A stretch of 64,000 nt of DNA from Planctomycetota bacterium (lineage in GTDB: Bacteria; Planctomycetota; Phycisphaerae; Phycisphaerales; Phycisphaeraceae): contig JAJRRC010000063.1 in NCBI GenBank assembly GCA_024279865.1, positions 1 through 64,000 of the forward strand, in the 5' to 3' direction. The notes below the pieces were generated by a model, which made no database searches, was not told the DNA's origin, and saw only the letters and a list, made by a program, of their open reading frames with translations. Position 1 is the first letter of the stretch. Each line of letters begins with the position of its first letter. The translations under genes and the position numbers were made by a program. Of this stretch, positions 47,823-60,502 are shown in pieces.

Positions 47823-48049
47823 GGTCGTATCACTTTCTATTGAGCAATTGAACGCAGCAGTGTAATGGATCGGCGCAAAAGAGGAAATCACAGAAGTTCC
47901 AAAGACCCCAGTCAGCCATCGCGCTAAGCGGACTGCCAGGGCTCTCTAAGACCCCCAATGCTGTGAGGCGTTCGCCAAAGGAGGCGATTGGGGGTAAAAT
48001 AGATGTTTTGCCACATGTATAGCCTGATGCCGAAAGGTTGCCCTCTTCG

Positions 48050-50773
48050 ATGAGCGATAATTCCAAAACACCCCCGGAAAACACCCCGGAAAACACTGCT
48101 GAAGAAGCCACGGACCGACCTGCTGTGGGTCGCATTATTGATCAACCCATTGACCGTGAGTTGGCCGAGAGCTATCTCACCTATGCGATGAGCACCATTG
48201 TCGACCGGGCTTTGCCTGATGTGCGCGATGGTTTAAAGCCTTCTCAACGCCGCATTCTTGTGGCCATGAATGACATGAGTCTCACTCCTGGCCGCAAGCA
48301 CTCTAAGTGTGCCGGTATCGTCGGTGAGACGATGAAAAAGTATCACCCCCATGGTGATAGCGTGATTTATCCAACCTTGGTCCACATGGCTCAAGATTGG
48401 AAGATGAATGCTCTGCTTGTGGACAAGCAGGGGAACTTTGGTTCGATTGACCCCGATCCACCGGCTGCCATGCGTTACACCGAAGCCCGGATGCACCAGC
48501 ATGCCATGGAAATGCTTGAAGACCTCAAGCTCGACACGGTCGATTGGCAATCCAACTTCGACGAAACCACCCTTGAGCCCAAGGTTTTGCCTGGCAAATT
48601 GCCCAACCTTTTGGTCAATGGTTCAACCGGTATTGCCGTGGGCATGGCCTGCTCGATGCCGCCTCACAACCTTGGTGAAATTTGCGACGCCATTTTGGCG
48701 ATGTTGGACAACCCTGATTTAACGTTGGTGGATTTGCTTCAGATTATCCCGGGGCCTGACTTCCCCACCGGCGGCATCATCTGTGGCAAAAGTGGTTCAG
48801 CCCAAGCCTACAGCACCGGCCGCGGCCGCATCGTCGTGCGAGGCAAGGTTTCTCACGAGCAGACCAAGGCCGGCCGCAACAAAATCGTCATTACCGAAAT
48901 CCCCTTCCACGTTGCCAAAAACGACAGCATCATCGCCAAAATTGTCGATTCTCGGAAAAACGACCGACTCACCGATATTGCCAATATCACCGATGAATCG
49001 TCCAACCGCGTGGGCATGCGGGTCGTCATCGACCTCAAAAAGGGTGCAGATCCCAACGTCGTCGAAAATCAGCTCTACCAACAGACCCCGCTGCAATCGA
49101 CCTTCAGCATTATCAATATCTCGTTGGTCAAGGGACAGCCCCGTACGCTGACGCTCAAGGAACTGCTTCAGTACTACATTGAGCATCGCTACGAAGTCAT
49201 CCGCCGACGCACAGCCTTCAAACTTCGCAAGGCCAAGCATGAAGCCCATCGCATCGAAGGACTCATCTATGCGGTCTGCGATATCGACGAAATCATCGCA
49301 CTGATCCGTTCCTCCCGCACCCGTGATGAAGCCATTGACAAATTAATGGTTCGTGGATTCCAAATTCCCACCGATCATCCCTATGCACCGAAAATCCCAC
49401 AGCGATTGCTCGATGCCTCCAATGAAAAGCCCATCAAGCTTTCACGCATTCAAGCGGAAGCCATCGGCCGTCTGCAACTGATCCAATTGGTCGGTCTGGA
49501 AATCGAAAAGCTCGTTCGCAACTATGCTGAACTCATTATTGAAATCGAAGACTACGAAGATATTCTCGCCAACCGCGAGCGGATTCGACAGATCATCCAA
49601 GATGATACCGAAGAACTCAAAACCAAATACGCCAGACCTCGCCGAAGCATCTTCTCAGATGAAGAAGTCGGCAACTTTGACTTGGGCGCACTGACCCCTG
49701 AACAACAGGTGGCTGTCACCATCACCCACATGGGCTACGTCAAACGTCTCCCCGTCGAGGAATATCGCACGCAAGGTCGCGGCGGCAAGGGTGTCATCGG
49801 TGCCAACATGCACACCGAAGATTTTACCAAACAGGTTTTTGTCTCCTCCACGCATGATGATTTGCTCTGCTTCACCAACACCGGCCGCGTCTTTAAGATC
49901 AAGGTCTATGCCATTCCAGAATCTAGCCGCACCAGTCGCGGACGGGCCGTGGTGAACTTGTTGAACCTCAAAGAGGGCGAACGCATCTGCAAATTTATGC
50001 CGATTGAAGACTTTGATAATCACCAAACCTGTCTGGTCTTTGCAACGAGACTCGGACGCGTCAAGCGAACATCACTCGCTGAATACCGCAATGTCAATAG
50101 CGCAGGCATCATTGCCATCAACCTTCGAGAAGGCGACGAACTCATCAACGTCACCCACACCAACGGCAACGACCATATCCTGCTCGGCACGTCCAAAGGC
50201 ATGTCCATCCGATTCAATGAAAACGATGCACGCATGATGGGACGCAATGCCTCAGGCGTGAAAGGTATTTCCCTCGCAGCAGATGATTATGTGGTCGATA
50301 TGGTCGACTGCACCCAAGAAGACCAAAACGAACTGCTCACCATCACCGAAAACGGCTACGGCAAACGTACCGCTCTCCATGAATATCTCGTCCATTCCGA
50401 AGACGGTTCAGTCCGCACGCAAGGTCGAGGCGGTAAAGGTCGACGAGACATCGCCACCACCAAGCGCAACGGCCGCGTGGTCGCGACCCTTTCCGTGCTG
50501 GACACCGATGACCTGGTCCTTATCAGCGTCGGCGGCATGATCGTGCGAATCGAAGCCAATAGCATCCGCCAAACCGGACGAGGCACCCAAGGCGTACGCG
50601 TCATCAACCTCAAAGGGGAAGACCAAGTCGCCAGCATCGCCCGGATCGCAGAATCTGACAGCCCCGAATCAGAGGAAGCTTCAGGCACCCCCGGCACCCC
50701 CGGTACCCCCGATGCCCCGGACACCCCCGAGACTACAGAGCAGGTCACGTCTTCGGAGACAAGATCCGATTAA
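48050..50773 (+). CDS. gyrA: DNA gyrase subunit A
   Basis: Cuts and rejoins the gate segment during negative supercoiling. 907 residues from the ATG at 48050. Catalytic Y143 is in PAAMRYTEARM; the quinolone region reads KYHPHGDSVIYPTL with S104 (E. coli S83) and P108 in place of D87. The C-terminal beta-pinwheel has blades with QGRGGKG twice (about 581 and 795), where the GyrA-box is normally QRRGGKG. The tail (GTPGTPGTPDAPDTPETTEQ) is Pro/Thr/acid rich and coded by ACCCCCGG units; the N-terminus has a similar short run. No gyrB in the window. A ParC-like function cannot be fully excluded. Confidence 0.92.
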   Translation: MSDNSKTPPENTPENTAEEATDRPAVGRIIDQPIDRELAESYLTYAMSTIVDRALPDVRDGLKPSQRRILVAMNDMSLTPGRKHSKCAGIVGETMKKYHPHGDSVIYPTLVHMAQDWKMNALLVDKQGNFGSIDPDPPAAMRYTEARMHQHAMEMLEDLKLDTVDWQSNFDETTLEPKVLPGKLPNLLVNGSTGIAVGMACSMPPHNLGEICDAILAMLDNPDLTLVDLLQIIPGPDFPTGGIICGKSGSAQAYSTGRGRIVVRGKVSHEQTKAGRNKIVITEIPFHVAKNDSIIAKIVDSRKNDRLTDIANITDESSNRVGMRVVIDLKKGADPNVVENQLYQQTPLQSTFSIINISLVKGQPRTLTLKELLQYYIEHRYEVIRRRTAFKLRKAKHEAHRIEGLIYAVCDIDEIIALIRSSRTRDEAIDKLMVRGFQIPTDHPYAPKIPQRLLDASNEKPIKLSRIQAEAIGRLQLIQLVGLEIEKLVRNYAELIIEIEDYEDILANRERIRQIIQDDTEELKTKYARPRRSIFSDEEVGNFDLGALTPEQQVAVTITHMGYVKRLPVEEYRTQGRGGKGVIGANMHTEDFTKQVFVSSTHDDLLCFTNTGRVFKIKVYAIPESSRTSRGRAVVNLLNLKEGERICKFMPIEDFDNHQTCLVFATRLGRVKRTSLAEYRNVNSAGIIAINLREGDELINVTHTNGNDHILLGTSKGMSIRFNENDARMMGRNASGVKGISLAADDYVVDMVDCTQEDQNELLTITENGYGKRTALHEYLVHSEDGSVRTQGRGGKGRRDIATTKRNGRVVATLSVLDTDDLVLISVGGMIVRIEANSIRQTGRGTQGVRVINLKGEDQVASIARIAESDSPESEEASGTPGTPGTPDAPDTPETTEQVTSSETRSD

Positions 50774-50782
50774 TGCCCTTGT

Positions 50783-51136
50783 ATGAAAGCGCCCTTTATG
50801 CCCATTGAACAATGGTCTGCTGATATTTGGATTAATCGTGTTCCGGAAAAACCGGGCATGTCTGAGGATCTTGACACGCTCCTCTATGCCATGAAAGAAG
50901 CTTCGACAACCCCGCATTTGGTGGTCGATTTGTCCAATGTGCCTCACGTCACCAGTTCCAATTTATCTCAAATGCTACGTTTGCGTAAATTGGCGATTGA
51001 TAAAGATGTAAAAATGCGAATCGTCGGACCAAGAGATTCTGTCTGGGCGATTTTTCTCACCACAGGCTTGGACAAAGTCTTTGAATTTTCTCCAGACATC
51101 AGTGTGGCCCTAGCCGATCTGCAAATTAACACATAA
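50783..51136 (+). CDS. STAS-domain protein (anti-sigma factor antagonist-like)
   Basis: 117 residues of the STAS fold: LVVDLSNVPHVTSSNLSQML at about 46-65, with a Ser pair where SpoIIAA-like proteins are phosphorylated, then KMRIVGPRDSVWAIF and GLDKVFEFSPD. Would switch partners with an anti-sigma kinase, but none is nearby. It starts nine bases behind gyrA, so it may share its transcript. An in-frame ATG at 50798 is an alternative start. Confidence 0.82.
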   Translation: MKAPFMPIEQWSADIWINRVPEKPGMSEDLDTLLYAMKEASTTPHLVVDLSNVPHVTSSNLSQMLRLRKLAIDKDVKMRIVGPRDSVWAIFLTTGLDKVFEFSPDISVALADLQINT

Positions 51137-51212
51137 CTCAGCAAAGTTGCAACCTGCGGGGCGAGTCAAGAGTAACAACTGTTAACCTAACCTTTTTTTG
51201 GAGCTACAAAAC

Positions 51213-51860
51213 ATGACTCATTCTTTCCGACTAATGACCTTGATTGCCTGTATGGGCTTTTTCTTTGGAACTCCCCTCGTCTCACATGCCGCAGATGCCA
51301 AAGTAGCCACGAAAACTCAACCCAACATCAAAGTAGACAAAAAAGACTGTGACAAAAGTGACAAAGATTGCGATAAGGTCAAAAAAGACTGCGATAAAAG
51401 TGGCAAAAACATCGATAAGGCCAAAAAAGCATGTGCCAAAGATTGCGCCAAGCCTTGCTGCAAAGCAGACAAAAAAGACTGTGACAAAAGTGACAAAGAT
51501 TGCGACAAAAGTGGCAAAAATATCGATAAGGCCAAAAAAGCACGTGACAAAGATTGCGACAAGGCCAAAAAAGATTGCGATAAAAGCGACAAAAACATCG
51601 ATAAGGCCAAAAAAGCATGTGCCAAAGATTGCACCAAGCCTTGCTGCAAAGCAGACAAAAAAGACTGTGACAAAAGTGACAAAGACTGCGACAAGGCCAA
51701 AAAAGACTGCGACAAAAGTGGCAAAAATATCGATAAGGCCAAAAAAGTATATGCCAAAGATTGCGACAAGCCTTGCTGCAAAGCGGTCAAAAAAGATTGT
51801 GACAAAAGTGACAAAGACTGTGATAAGCCTTGCGGTAAAAACGGCAAGAAAAAGAGCTGA
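51213..51860 (+). CDS. Secreted Cys/Lys/Asp-rich repeat protein
   Basis: 215 residues with a signal peptide (SFRLMTLIACMGFFFG, cleaved near SHAAD). The mature protein is almost only Lys, Asp, Cys, Ser, Ala and Asn in a 44-residue unit beginning KKDCDKSDKDCDK and ending AKDCAKPCCKAD, present about 3.4 times (43-86, 87-148 with an 18-residue insertion, 149-192, 193-208). About 24 Cys are regularly spaced. No family recognised. Cys pairs spaced six or seven apart and CC dipeptides suggest metal binding or an oxidised cross-linked fibre. GGAG lies nine bases before the ATG. The next gene shares its signal peptide and Cys motif. Confidence 0.8.
   Translation: MTHSFRLMTLIACMGFFFGTPLVSHAADAKVATKTQPNIKVDKKDCDKSDKDCDKVKKDCDKSGKNIDKAKKACAKDCAKPCCKADKKDCDKSDKDCDKSGKNIDKAKKARDKDCDKAKKDCDKSDKNIDKAKKACAKDCTKPCCKADKKDCDKSDKDCDKAKKDCDKSGKNIDKAKKVYAKDCDKPCCKAVKKDCDKSDKDCDKPCGKNGKKKS
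51339..51836 (+). repeat. Intragenic tandem repeats coding the 44-residue unit
   Basis: Units at 51339-51470, 51471-51656 (longer by 54 bases), 51657-51788 and a partial one at 51789-51836. Nucleotide identity between units is very high, including synonymous sites, so they arose by recent duplication or gene conversion. Long open frames on the other strand are a by-product of this biased sequence. Confidence 0.85.
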
Positions 51861-51906
51861 TCTGACCCCACACCGCAATAGTTAATCCCATACCTGGAGT
51901 TGAAAA

Positions 51907-53637
51907 ATGACAAATTCCTTTCGTTTAATGCTATGGATGGCCTGCATGGGCTTTTTACTTGGGGCTCCAGCCCAAGGACATGCCCTCGCAGCAGAGGAAA
52001 CTTCGCCTGCCAAAGAAACGGCTGTCGTCGTAGAAGAAACGACCAAGGAAACCTCTCCCAAAACCACTATTACTCAAGAGCCTGCCGCCACACCCATCAC
52101 AGAAGAGACTCCCAAAAAAGATGATGTCAAAGAAGTAAAAGAGACCTCTCTACCTGCCACGGATCAAGTCACCTGCGACAAAAACAAAAATTGCACCAAG
52201 CCTTGCTGCAAAAAGAACTGTGAAACACGCGATCAGTCTTGTGACAAGCCCTGTGATGAAAAGGACGACTCCAGTGACAAGGTCCAAGCCAAGGCCACCT
52301 CACCTACCCCCCAACTAGCCAAGCCCACCAAGCAACCCTCTGCATTGAGTCGCATTGAAAAAAAGACCAAGCAATTATCAGCCCAGGCAGCACTGCGAAA
52401 ACAAGTCCAAGGAGCCAAGTTTTTTAAACTCCAAGAAGAAAATACCCAACTCAAACTCGAATACAGCCTGATGAAACAACGCCAGGCCAACGCACTACTC
52501 AAACTTGAATTGGAAAAACAACGCCTCGCAGCCATTGCTTCGCTACGCCAAGCTCAGCAGAAAGAATCTCAGGCCAAGCTCAAAGAAGAATTGGCTTCGC
52601 TCAATGCCAACATGCAATTGCAAGAAGCACAAAACAAGCAAAAACTTCTTCAGATGAAGTCCGAATTAACAACACTCACAACTGAAAGAAGCCTCGCCAA
52701 AGCCCGCGCTGCTCAGAAAATGGGGGACTTGGACGATAAACGTGCAGAACTAGCATCTCTGAACGCCCTTTCTTCGGAAAAATTCCGAGCCACTCAGCTA
52801 TCCATCAACCATCAGTCTGCATTGAAAAAATCCTCCTTTATGGAGGCTCAAACCGATATTCAACTGCGTGAATTGCAGCATAAAAAAGATGCTGAGATTT
52901 CAGGCAAACCCACTTATCGCAAAGACCCGTTGGTTAATGGTACGCTGTACATCTCGGACCGTCGCATCAAATTAACAGGTCCCATCATCACCGGCACGGC
53001 CGATTATGTGTGTGACCGAATTCACTTTTTCAATAATGAATCCAAGGAAAAACCAATTTTCCTCGTGATCGACAACTGCCCCGGCGGTTCGGTCATGCAA
53101 GGCTATCGCATCGTCAAAGCCATTCAATCCAGCACGGCTCCAGTCCATGTGGTGGTTAAATCCTTTGCCGCTTCGATGGCAGCGATTATCACCACCTTGG
53201 CGGACCACTCTTACGCGTATCCCAACGCGATCATTCTGCACCATCAATTGTCCGCAGGCCTGCGAGGCAACATCACCGACATGGAACAGGCCGTCCGAAC
53301 CATGCAGGAATGGGAACGTCGTCTAGCTGAACCGGTCGCCAATAAAATGGGGTTGACCGTCAAAGAGTTCAAAAAACAAATGTACGCTCACCGCGCCACT
53401 GGCGACTGGGATGAATTTGCCGACGAAGCGGTCAAACTCAAATGGGTCAACCACGTTGTTGATGAAATCCGTGAAGAAGGAACCCGCGTGCGACCTGTGG
53501 GCGATCCGCCGAAACCTTGGTACTGGGCCTTCTTTGCTCAGGACGAAAAAGGCAATACGTACTGCAAATTACCGCCTTTAGAACCCATGGATGCCTATTT
53601 CATCCATAACCCCAACCAATTTTTCCGTATGCAGTAA
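51907..53637 (+). CDS. Secreted ClpP/SppA-like serine protease with coiled coil and Cys motif
   Basis: 576 residues. A signal peptide (SFRLMLWMACMGFLLG) is near-identical to that of the preceding gene. Then come a Thr/Glu/Lys-rich region, a Cys motif (C90, C96, C100, C101, C105, C112, C116; NCTKPCCKKNC), a long coiled coil (about 145-330) and a ClpP-fold domain (about 340-525). Probable triad: S423 in SFAASMAAI, H446 in ILHHQLSAG, D502 in GDWDEFADEAV; the oxyanion loop is DNCPGGS (389-395). ClpP is normally cytosolic, so an exported coiled-coil version is unusual; SppA-like membrane proteases are the nearest exported relatives. Starts 46 bases after the repeat gene; a terminator follows. Confidence 0.85.
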   Translation: MTNSFRLMLWMACMGFLLGAPAQGHALAAEETSPAKETAVVVEETTKETSPKTTITQEPAATPITEETPKKDDVKEVKETSLPATDQVTCDKNKNCTKPCCKKNCETRDQSCDKPCDEKDDSSDKVQAKATSPTPQLAKPTKQPSALSRIEKKTKQLSAQAALRKQVQGAKFFKLQEENTQLKLEYSLMKQRQANALLKLELEKQRLAAIASLRQAQQKESQAKLKEELASLNANMQLQEAQNKQKLLQMKSELTTLTTERSLAKARAAQKMGDLDDKRAELASLNALSSEKFRATQLSINHQSALKKSSFMEAQTDIQLRELQHKKDAEISGKPTYRKDPLVNGTLYISDRRIKLTGPIITGTADYVCDRIHFFNNESKEKPIFLVIDNCPGGSVMQGYRIVKAIQSSTAPVHVVVKSFAASMAAIITTLADHSYAYPNAIILHHQLSAGLRGNITDMEQAVRTMQEWERRLAEPVANKMGLTVKEFKKQMYAHRATGDWDEFADEAVKLKWVNHVVDEIREEGTRVRPVGDPPKPWYWAFFAQDEKGNTYCKLPPLEPMDAYFIHNPNQFFRMQ

Positions 53638-53657: not shown

Positions 53658-53689
53658 AAGGGCCTGGCCAAAGTGCTAGGCCCTTTTTT
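53658..53689 (+). terminator. Intrinsic terminator of the repeat protein/protease locus
   Basis: AAGGGCCT (53658-53665) and AGGCCCTT (53678-53685) form an 8-bp stem with a 12-base loop, running into TTTTTT. It lies 20 bases past the protease stop. Confidence 0.9.
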
Positions 53690-56818: not shown

Positions 56819-56855
56819 AGAGACGCCTGAGCCTTACCGCTTGGGCGTCTCTTTT
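56819..56855 (+). terminator. Terminator at the end of the ADP-ribosylglycohydrolase gene
   Basis: AGAGACGCC (56819-56827) pairs with GGCGTCTCT (56844-56852), followed by TTTT. The stem overlaps the last codons of the convergent gene at 56834, so coding sequence and terminator share bases. Confidence 0.7.
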
Positions 56856-59800
56856 GCTTTGGTTGCGATGCGTGTGGCATTGATCGGATTGCCTTTACGA
56901 TCTAGGCCGATGGTATTCCCCTCAAAGTGGAACAGTGCATTGGTACGGGAATCCACTTCAAACGGTTCCGCTGGCGGGACAAATGCGCGTCTGCCGCCGA
57001 CTTTGGGCGGGCCAGGCATAAATGGATAACGGGGAATATCGGAGATACGAAATTCATCAATGACGCACGAGGTTTGGTTGTCGCCGGATACGTTTTCTAA
57101 GCCGCCGAGAAGCAGATACGGCCCAGGCTTGCCAGGTTCAATGGCCAAAGGCCACCAATTGATCAAGTCATATCGGCCAAAGGCATCTCCATAGGCATAC
57201 GGATAGCCGTCAAGGTAGATTCGTCGCATGGCCTTGCCGTTGTCATTGGTATTCCACTGAATGGCAAGGTGATACCAACGCCCCGCTGTGATCTGAGGCG
57301 AGCAAAACCGATCTGTCAGGGCAACTTGCCGTAATTGCCCTCCCCCACTACGAAACACGCCTTGCCAATGGGCTCCCGTTTGAAAGGTCATCATAAAAGT
57401 GGGATCGCCCTGATTTTTCAGCGAAAGCAACATGTTTTGATAACCACCAGCAATGGTACTTCGGCCGAAACGAATGAACATTTCAATCGTTCCCTGCCTG
57501 GCGTTAAAATACTCTCGAACAGTCGGGTCTGTCGTCGGGGCTCCCGTGGGAATTCGCACATAGATTTTACTACCCTGCAAACGAATTCCTCTGCGGAAGC
57601 GTCCGCGTGGAAAAGCCACACGAGCAATCACCGATTTTTCAGGACGCTGCTCAGAAACCGCAATCGGCCGAAACAAACTCTCTTTTAAAGGTGCTACAAA
57701 AGTTGGAATCCCAATCAGTTTTAAATAGTAAGGCATCAGTGTCCCACGTGAAAACGATGTGTTTTCTAGTTCAAAATAGGGCTGCGAACTGCGGACAGAC
57801 CAAACTTTACTGGTCTGTCTTGCATGGGGCTTGAGGGTTGCCTTATCTGATTCAAAGGTCTGTACCTGGCCATCAGGAAGTTCTATGTTGATTTGATTGG
57901 TGTTCGGGTGGGTACGTGCGACATGAACCGTAAATTCTTTGGTGCGTTTGGGAACAAAAAACCAAGCAGGTCCTTCAGCATGAACCAATTTCCCATTGCT
58001 AATATCTTGGACAAACAAGGTTCGCCCGTGCATCACCAACAACAGTTCATTGTCACCGGGCCGCCAGGGCAAGCTGCGGCCCAGGGTGCCGCCGTTGTTG
58101 GTTTCATACATGTTGGGGAGCTTGAACTGTAGACGGTATTGCACGGAAGGAACCGAAGCTGGAATGGTAATTTCATAGATACCGATTTTGCGTTGGCTAC
58201 GAAGTAAATTCGAGGCAATGGGCTTGTTGGCTGAATCGGTAATACTTAACTCGTTTTGACGACAATGCAGTTCAATATGCGTTTGACGCCCTTGTTCGTG
58301 TTTGAGATAAAATGTGGAATCCTGCGGCCTCGCGTAAGTGATCACCTGAGGCACAAGCACATCTTCGACCCCAGGCACATCGCGTAATCCCATCCAGATC
58401 AGCGTACTTCGCAAAGGAGCCAGATTCATCGGCCCCGTCAAGTCCGGAACGCCATTATCTAAAACCGCCCGTGCATTCGCGCCAAAACGTGGGTCTGGCT
58501 CACGCTGCCAAGACCATGCCTGAATCCCCGAAGCGATTGCCCATGTCGTATGAAAACGCATCGGCCCAATGGCCCCTCGGGCAAAAGTCGTCGCCACGCT
58601 CACCCATGTGGGTTTGGGGTTTGGGTCCGCCAGCAATTCGCCCAACGCATACTCAAATGAAATGTCATGGCTAGGCCAAAAGCCCGTCCCCAGTTGCCGT
58701 TGCAGGAACACGGGCGCTTGCTCTTCGAGCATTTGTCGCAGGGAAGAATCCCAAGTCAAACGATAGTAGCTCGCCAAGGCTCCCAGGTAAGACACTGCAT
58801 CATCTGTCACGGGTTTGCGTGGCGTGCGTTGATAGCCTTTAACTATTTCCCCCAAGACATCGAGGGGACGTTGGTTGCCGGTGATTAAAAAAGCGGTTGA
58901 TAAAAATCCAGGCCACACATCACCATTCCAACCGGCATCGCTACCGTCAAAAACCCAACTGCCGGTGTGTTTGTAGACTTGGCCAATTTTACGTCCAAGA
59001 TCACTCGAATACCAGTGAATGATCCTCGCATCCATCACCTGCGTGGTCATCGCCAACGCTCGTTGAAAATAACGTCTCTCACCACTACGAAGGTAGAGTA
59101 ACCACGGCACATCTGGATTGCCATAGCTCATATCATCGTTGGCGTTGATTCCGGAATACTGCCATGAAGTATTTTCTTTGCCTTGACGTGATGGCATCAA
59201 ATCTCGAGGGCAACCACGACCATAGTCCCAAAAACCAACCATGGGTTCAAGGCTCGTTGCGATTTCGACGTATTGATCAAATTGCTCGCGAATTTGTGAT
59301 TCCAGACCTGCAAACCGTTCTTCGTCATACGGTGGAATATCAAACGCCAGCACCCCTGCCTTGCAATTCCACTTGGGTTCAGCCATCGCCAGAGGAGGTT
59401 CCTGCCCCAACGTCCCCACAAGCGAGGCTGCTTGGGCATTAGGGGCATGGAAGTTCAGTGTTAAGTGATGCGTACGCGCAAAGCCCAAGCCGTTGGAAAC
59501 ACGGGTTTCAAAGGGGCCTTGTGTCGCCGCATGTTGATTCATCCGGTCCCAGGACTCTTTCCCCCACAGACGCTTGATAGACTCATGACGAAAGTCCAGT
59601 TCATGACCACCCTTGGCTGACCACGCGTGAAAGGTTAAGCCGCGGGGGTTCACTTCCAACGCGTTGGGAAATTGTAAGTTCATGTCCCGCACGGTGAGTG
59701 TTGCGCCTACTTGTTCGCCAAGCAATGATCCCCAGCCTGCTGCTTGGGAACCCGCAATGGGAGTCGCGTCATCTGCCCCAAGCGCAAAGTGCTGTGGCTG

Positions 59801-60502
59801 ATCTTGTATCAGAAAAACAGAGTTGTCTTTGTTCAGTGGTAGCTCACGGTATTTGGCAAGATCCTTGCGATCTGTACCAAAAACACTCACGGAAGATTGG
59901 CCTAAGGACATCGGAAACGCAAGGCCCAACTCACGGAACCACATCTGATCGGTATCGACAGTGACGATCCAAGTATGATCAATTTTTGCCATGGCCTGAC
60001 CACGGAACAACTGAATCCGTGTCAGATATCGGCAAGCTTTTTCACCATTTTCATTGATGTACCAACCCTCAGCTCGCACCACAACGCGCAACGGGCCAGC
60101 CAACTCCACCGTTAATTGATAATCTTCATCCCGACCGGAAGTGCGATAGGTTCGTCCTTGATTATCAACAAAAAACCCGCCTCGCTTGGGCGTCGGAACC
60201 ATCACGGGCTTGCCATCAACCCACGCAGCCTCGATCAACGTGCCACGTGTTCGGCTCAACTGAACCTTCAAACGGCCTGTGTCCACCGTCACATTCTGTT
60301 TATCTTCAGTCACCACAATTGGGTTGACCACGGCCTGACGCTTGGTGCGACGGCCATACTCGAGCATCAAGTCTGTTGGAACCGACACCTCCGAAAAAGA
60401 GAGCTGGGTATCTACCAACACCCACTTCAGTGAATCCTGTTCTCCCCAAGTTGCCGTGGGCGTGATCTGAGAGGGAATCTCTTGGCCTTGAGAATCCAGC
60501 AA
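56834..60502 (-). pseudogene. Main part of a frameshifted YetA/exo-rhamnogalacturonan-lyase-like gene with a LamG domain
   Basis: 1222 codons, but the nominal start (TTG at 60502) lies inside a conserved block (LLDSQGQEIPSQITPTATW), so the true N-terminus is in the frame at 60427-61338. The N-terminal beta region (DSLKWVLVDTQL) resembles PcRGLX/YetA (PL26-type) lyases, followed by a beta-sandwich and an alpha/alpha-toroid region (about 420-640; GNPDVPWLLYLRSGE, DGSDAGWNGDVWPGF). The C-terminal 180 residues are a LamG-like domain (GRWYHLAIQWNTNDNG, SCVIDEFRISD). Probably a secreted polysaccharide-degrading or binding enzyme when intact. The family call rests on blocks recalled, not on a search. 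Confidence 0.6.

Follow-up and report, generated by a model that had tools for sequence, protein, structure and literature searches.

A ClpP-type protease family with a conserved signal-like N-terminus and a predicted helical stalk, and a probable partial duplicate of its gene in one planctomycete lineage

Introduction

ClpP is a cytosolic proteolytic chamber driven by AAA+ unfoldases, and the locus described here raises a question: what is a ClpP-type protease with an apparent export signal doing beside a gene for a Cys-rich repeat protein that begins in nearly the same way? The locus lies in a stretch of 64,000 nucleotides (contig C82, hereafter the window) of a draft assembly of 3.4 Mb, and the relatives of this genome are planctomycetes, mainly Phycisphaerae. 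An earlier note, made from the sequence, proposed a self-contained envelope system of two genes, in which the exported protease would process or bind a layer of Cys-repeat protein linked by disulfides or metal. After the analysis below, the main interest lies with the protease family and less with the two-gene locus. Our preferred reading, held at a probability of roughly 0.62, is that of an exported, stalked ClpP-type protease independent of AAA+ unfoldases, with a lineage-specific partial duplicate beside its gene.

Layout of the Locus

The features on which the argument depends are as follows.

48038-50773, same strand as both genes: gyrA, directly upstream
50783-51136, same strand as both genes: STAS-domain gene, directly after gyrA
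51200-51212, plus strand: GGAG ribosome-binding site and leader of the repeat gene, read from the sequence; the start region has an aligned counterpart in the protease gene
51213-51860, plus strand: open reading frame of the Cys/Lys/Asp repeat protein, 215 aa, signal peptide at about residues 1-26; known from one genome
51358-51694, plus strand: tandem array of 186 nt (62 aa), 1.8 copies, 95% match (TRF)
about 51544-51820, plus strand: array of 132 nt (44 aa), overlapping the 186-nt array downstream (TRF)
51907-53637, plus strand: exported ClpP-type protease, 576 aa, putative (Pfam CLP_protease, E 1.7e-24; family alignments)
51907-51993, plus strand: protease signal peptide, about residues 1-29 (N-terminus hydrophobic, with a signal peptidase I-like site; scored crudely)
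52174-52260, plus strand: Cys cluster CDKNKNCTKPCCKKNCETRDQSCDKPCDE, residues 90-118, common to the repeat protein (DNA and protein alignment) and rare in the family
52381-52893, plus strand: stalk, a predicted continuous helix, residues 159-329 (AlphaFold2 model)
52912-53481, plus strand: ClpP-fold catalytic domain, about residues 336-525, with S423, H446 and D500 (model, alignment, structure matches)
53566-53634, plus strand: conserved C-terminal tail KLPPLEPMDAYFIHNPNQFFRMQ, residues 554-576 (loose motif in 85 of 91 distinct relatives)
53658-53685, plus strand: intrinsic terminator-like hairpin followed by a T run (terminator scan)

The gap between the repeat gene and the protease gene is 46 bases, in which the terminator scan found no convincing terminator; a weak match of chance level at 51939-51952 falls within the signal sequence of the protease. 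The pair would thus be read as one operon with a single terminator behind it, and since gyrA and the STAS-domain gene immediately precede the pair in the same orientation, the transcription unit could exceed two genes. A sigma-70 promoter scan found no promoter, though a sigma-70 model says little for this phylum. The earlier description of the locus, with two open reading frames that share a near-identical signal peptide and a Cys motif, separated by 46 bases and followed by one terminator, is confirmed.

The neighbours of the protease gene in the window are gyrA, the STAS-domain gene, a sulfatase and an ADP-ribosylglycohydrolase. The pairing of gyrA with the STAS-domain gene is kept in several relatives, that is to say, it is a conserved linkage. 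Further along, on the minus strand (56834-60502), an open reading frame of 1222 aa carries PcRGLX-like (rhamnogalacturonan lyase-like) and laminin G-like domains, and its position near the sulfatase and the ADP-ribosylglycohydrolase suggests a region of polysaccharide use.

Homologous 5′ Ends of the Two Reading Frames

The likeness of the two genes goes beyond chance at both levels of comparison. The signal peptides share 16 of 26 residues with a BLOSUM62 score of 85, while the maximum over 20,000 shuffles was 47 and the next-best signal peptide within the protease family scored 32 in the same comparison. In DNA, the stretch of leader and signal peptide has 74% identity across 66 nt, and the block encoding CTKPCCK matches at 27 of 28 nt (E 4e-9); aligned as protein, the Cys block of the protease against the repeat protein gave a score that none of 2000 shuffles reached. 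By these alignments the ribosome-binding site, the signal peptide and the CTKPCCK block are homologous between the two reading frames, and a partial duplication of the three is the simplest account, so that the earlier claim of such a duplication is supported. The repeat gene is probably a young, lineage-specific partial duplicate of the 5′ end of the protease gene. The direction of copying (from the protease gene to the repeat gene, or the reverse) we infer, and since the closest relatives of the protease carry neither the signal sequence seen in the window nor the Cys block, either gene may have been the source.

The Repeat Gene and Its Product

The repeat protein contains 25 Cys, 63 Lys and 42 Asp, the mature form has a net charge of about +21, and its Cys residues are often 7 residues apart. 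It had been described as a 44-residue repeat with about 24 Cys; the count stands, there being 24 Cys after the signal peptide, but the array is hierarchical and no plain 44-mer, with units of 7 and 14 aa (21 and 42 nt) nested inside the 132-nt (44-aa) and 186-nt (62-aa) arrays found by TRF. As the assembly is a draft, the number of repeats is uncertain.

Is this gene under selection, or is it drifting? The repeat copies differ by about equal numbers of synonymous and non-synonymous codon changes (4:4, 7:6 and 14:22), which gives no clear sign of purifying selection in these sequences, the changes being too few to inform. That balance, together with low complexity and the restriction to one genome, would suit a non-functional or weakly functional duplicate that drifts and expands by slippage. 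Yet the signal peptide, the ribosome-binding site and the open frame are intact, every one of the strongest repeat shifts is divisible by three, which is consistent with coding, and the Cys positions are mostly kept across copies. We therefore regard the drifting duplicate as a tentative alternative, to be kept in mind behind our preferred reading, in which the product is probably a secreted Cys/Lys-rich polypeptide.

The repeat gene was not found elsewhere in its own genome. It is absent from all 120 relatives searched, where two further matches were weak (E 0.003-0.005, 28-31% identity), and from all 16 protease-bearing genomes, where the best match had an E of 0.012. Several relatives keep the gyrA-STAS pair, yet no Cys-repeat gene follows it there. 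As far as sequence comparison goes, the repeat gene is probably a one-off copy of the front end of the protease gene and no conserved partner of the protease.

Cys Cluster and Neighbours across the Protease Family

The Cys cluster of the protease is rare in the family. Taking a cluster as more than one Cys in the linker, it occurs in 2 of 91 distinct full-length relatives, namely the window protein and the protein of locus L046/L148; the two are not sisters in the tree, and G030 and G072, which form the window protein's sister group, have no Cys block. In L046, and also in L148, residues 44-57 form a Cys cluster of their own, CDKNCTACDRAGQC, which follows the signal peptide and, in this distantly placed member, resembles CDKNKNCTKPCC of the window. 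The two clusters arose by convergence, or else they are an ancestral trait that few members have kept.

Among the named loci that were examined, and likewise in 6 close relatives, no Cys/Lys-rich gene stands next to the protease gene; two Cys-rich reading frames near proteases of relatives look, by sequence reading, like ribosomal proteins of the L33 type. Nor is there any conserved gene neighbourhood around the named protease loci, only synteny at the level of the lineage among close strains, so that no neighbour points to a substrate.

These results bear directly on the two-gene envelope system. The adjacency of the genes, the shared signal peptide and Cys block and the common terminator speak for it, and it might have arisen recently in the window lineage alone. 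They are outweighed by the absence of the repeat gene from 120 relatives and 16 protease genomes, by the lack of the Cys cluster in the closest relatives of the protease, and by the want of Cys-rich neighbours in the loci named above, and we consider the system quite improbable. As a conserved arrangement built on a Cys-rich matrix it does not hold: the protease is widespread without the repeat gene and without the Cys motif, a pattern that the earlier note had itself taken as counting against its claim. That the protease processes a Cys-rich layer cannot hold for the family at large, though it may do so in the window lineage.

Fold, Catalytic Triad and Docking Pocket of the Protease

In the AlphaFold2 model, a linker of low confidence extends to about residue 150 and is followed by a helix (residues 159-329), a ClpP domain with pLDDT of about 95 and a tail whose pLDDT is about 78-89. 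The earlier note had proposed a coiled coil of nearly 190 residues; a long helix is indeed predicted, but it measures 171 residues. When the model was searched against solved structures with Foldseek and VIA-align, all top matches were ClpP, with Z up to 23.0; the match to 9k2b_B (S. aureus ClpP) had Z 22.9 and 1.4 Å over 165 residues.

Placement of the triad relies on this fold match and on alignment, in which S423, H446 and D500 fall on S97, H122 and D171 of E. coli ClpP. For the latter we used what we take to be the reference sequence, with which the canonical ClpP of the same genome (contig C102) agrees. In aligned relatives the Ser and His are kept in 55 of 55 sequences and the Asp in 54 of 55. 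The handle helix (residues 456-481) is present and the oxyanion-type GG is conserved, while the window protease has Gly at the position of R170, which in E. coli ClpP adjoins the catalytic Asp. The proposal of an exported ClpP-fold domain with an apparently intact Ser-His-Asp thus gains support from the conserved triad and a ClpP match at Z 23. Since both the triad and the GG are conserved, the window protease is probably active.

The pocket by which ClpP receives its partners was mapped by sequence alignment; the model is a monomer, and a ring is assumed. Besides Y62 and F82, the pocket is taken to include L48, M92 and V28. Across 55 sequences, Y62 is replaced by V in 52 and M92 by K in 53, F82 becomes A, T, S or G, L48 becomes H, D or N, and V28 becomes R or K, so that the hydrophobic pocket which in ClpP receives the I/LGF loop of its AAA+ partners is not conserved; in the canonical ClpP of the same genome, most of these positions stay hydrophobic or aromatic. 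In B. subtilis ClpP, mutants of Y62 and F82 have been reported to be defective in ADEP binding and casein degradation, and the site is shared with the ATPase loop (PMC11005422). The loss of the pocket in this alignment makes independence from AAA+ unfoldases, as had been suggested, likely.

Behind the ClpP domain, the tail LPxLxPxDxYF..NPDxYYR is strongly conserved and may cover the docking pocket, as the C-terminus can do in canonical ClpP (PMC11005422).

Putative Export Signal

Of the 91 distinct full-length members, 90 have an N-terminus that a crude rule based on hydrophobicity calls signal-like, though some of these stretches may be uncleaved anchors. Export of the family, with the ClpP domain outside the inner membrane, is shown only in the form of this conserved N-terminus. 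It could also mean that the N-terminus stays as a membrane anchor, with the coil and the ClpP domain outside the membrane in an NfeD/SppA-like topology, given that the signals were called by hydrophobicity alone; this we think unlikely, for in many members the hydrophobic core runs straight into A-x-A-like sites and then into linkers rich in Ala and Pro, and the C-terminal part is ClpP, neither SppA nor NfeD. Far less probable still is that the protease is cytosolic, an ordinary paralogue of ClpP that continues to partner an AAA+ unfoldase. The fold and the triad would fit it, but nearly all members carry the signal-like N-terminus, the docking pocket is replaced, a long helix has taken the position of the axial loops, and the same genome has two canonical-type ClpP matches elsewhere.

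Distribution and Membership of the Family

The window protease matches Pfam CLP_protease above the cut-off (E 1.7e-24), with SDH and NfeD matches below threshold. It is not a member of the NCBIfam equivalogs or subfamilies of ATP-dependent ClpP, the best scores being 54-70 bits against cut-offs of 228-347. In the tree, the family forms a clade apart from canonical ClpP with support of 100/100.

A homologue much closer than canonical ClpP occurs in 6 of 60 relatives, and profile searches (E <= 1e-40) were positive in 55 of 400 genomes of the order and in 12 of 392 genomes of the phylum sample. In the collection of named genomes, a scan with the single protease sequence gave no matches, and an alignment-based scan succeeded, with at least 262 family loci from no fewer than five phyla. 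The best 80 of these belong to Planctomycetota, Elusimicrobiota, Verrucomicrobiota, Kiritimatiellota, Myxococcota and a few others, the last perhaps mis-binned. Counts of the catalytic Ser are biased in this collection, where the patterns used for finding loci included AASM; the motif is also carried by 39 of 39 loci from profile searches made without it. The shared architecture consists of signal peptide, helical stalk, ClpP fold and then the tail LPxLxPxDxY...NPDxYYR, which in loose form is seen in 85 of 91 distinct full-length members. A literature search, incomplete in coverage, returned nothing on an exported or periplasmic ClpP, and the family is apparently undescribed.

A viral origin was considered and rejected, there being one weak match to a viral contig (27% identity) and no plasmid match.

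Comparison with Known Systems

With ClpP (S14, PF00574) the window protease shares the fold, the catalytic Ser-His-Asp, the GG motif and the handle helix. It differs in its putative export signal, in an N-terminal helix of about 170 residues that replaces the axial loops, in extra residues before the catalytic Asp and in a conserved C-terminal tail, and its family stands in a separate clade without a conserved AAA+ docking pocket.

Phage head maturation proteases of the ClpP type (PHROG 94, NF045542) have a related catalytic domain, and the window protease scores similarly against their profile, 82 bits beside 87 for Pfam ClpP; to our knowledge they act without AAA+ unfoldases. Unlike them, the window protease has a putative export signal and a predicted helical stalk and lacks a phage context: no prophage or capsid genes were seen at the window locus, and no neighbours are conserved in relatives.

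The membrane proteases of the SppA, NfeD1b and SDH types have a ClpP-class fold and an extracytoplasmic location, but the window protease scores weakly against them, with 22 bits for PF01972 and 17 bits for PF25145, both under the cut-off. SppA as the closest relative was rejected (TIGR00706, 27 bits against a cut-off of 155); where the earlier note had named both the ClpP and the SppA folds, ClpP (S14) is the closest and SppA is neither the closest fold nor the closest family. The TepA protein of Bacillus is a ClpP-like protein linked to protein translocation.

Proposed Mechanism

In our preferred reading, Sec export would place the ClpP domain beyond the inner membrane. The helix would join where canonical ClpP has its axial loops, and because the N-terminus of ClpP sits at the axial pore, the helix should leave from the pore. 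In a ClpP-like ring, assumed here from the monomer model, the helices would then extend as a stalk out of the axial pore and, at the place otherwise taken by an AAA+ ring, would act as a tether or gate for the barrel. Since the AAA+ docking pocket is not conserved, the protease should work without ATP, and its substrates would be unfolded or small, or access would be gated by the stalk or the tail. The repeat gene would have begun as a copy of the 5′ end of the protease gene, with ribosome-binding site, signal peptide and Cys block, and then grown by tandem in-frame repeats; it is speculative that its product may pair with the Cys block of the protease through disulfides or metal.

A bolder form is put forward only tentatively, as we think it the less probable: that exported, ATP-independent ClpP barrels are widespread, that a heptameric helical stalk from the axial pore replaces the AAA+ ring as anchor and gate, and that in the window lineage the protease has also acquired a Cys block, together with a secreted partner of Cys repeats made from its own front end.

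Significance

The genes of this family are probably named automatically as subunits of the ATP-dependent Clp protease, which may have hidden the family. The Cys-repeat gene is a neat example of a gene for a secreted repeat protein whose 5′ end has a counterpart in the adjacent gene, from which it probably derives. If the preferred reading is true, an exported family spread over several phyla would give envelope proteostasis a protease of the ClpP type, and would make it possible to examine how a ClpP barrel is gated when no ATP is used.
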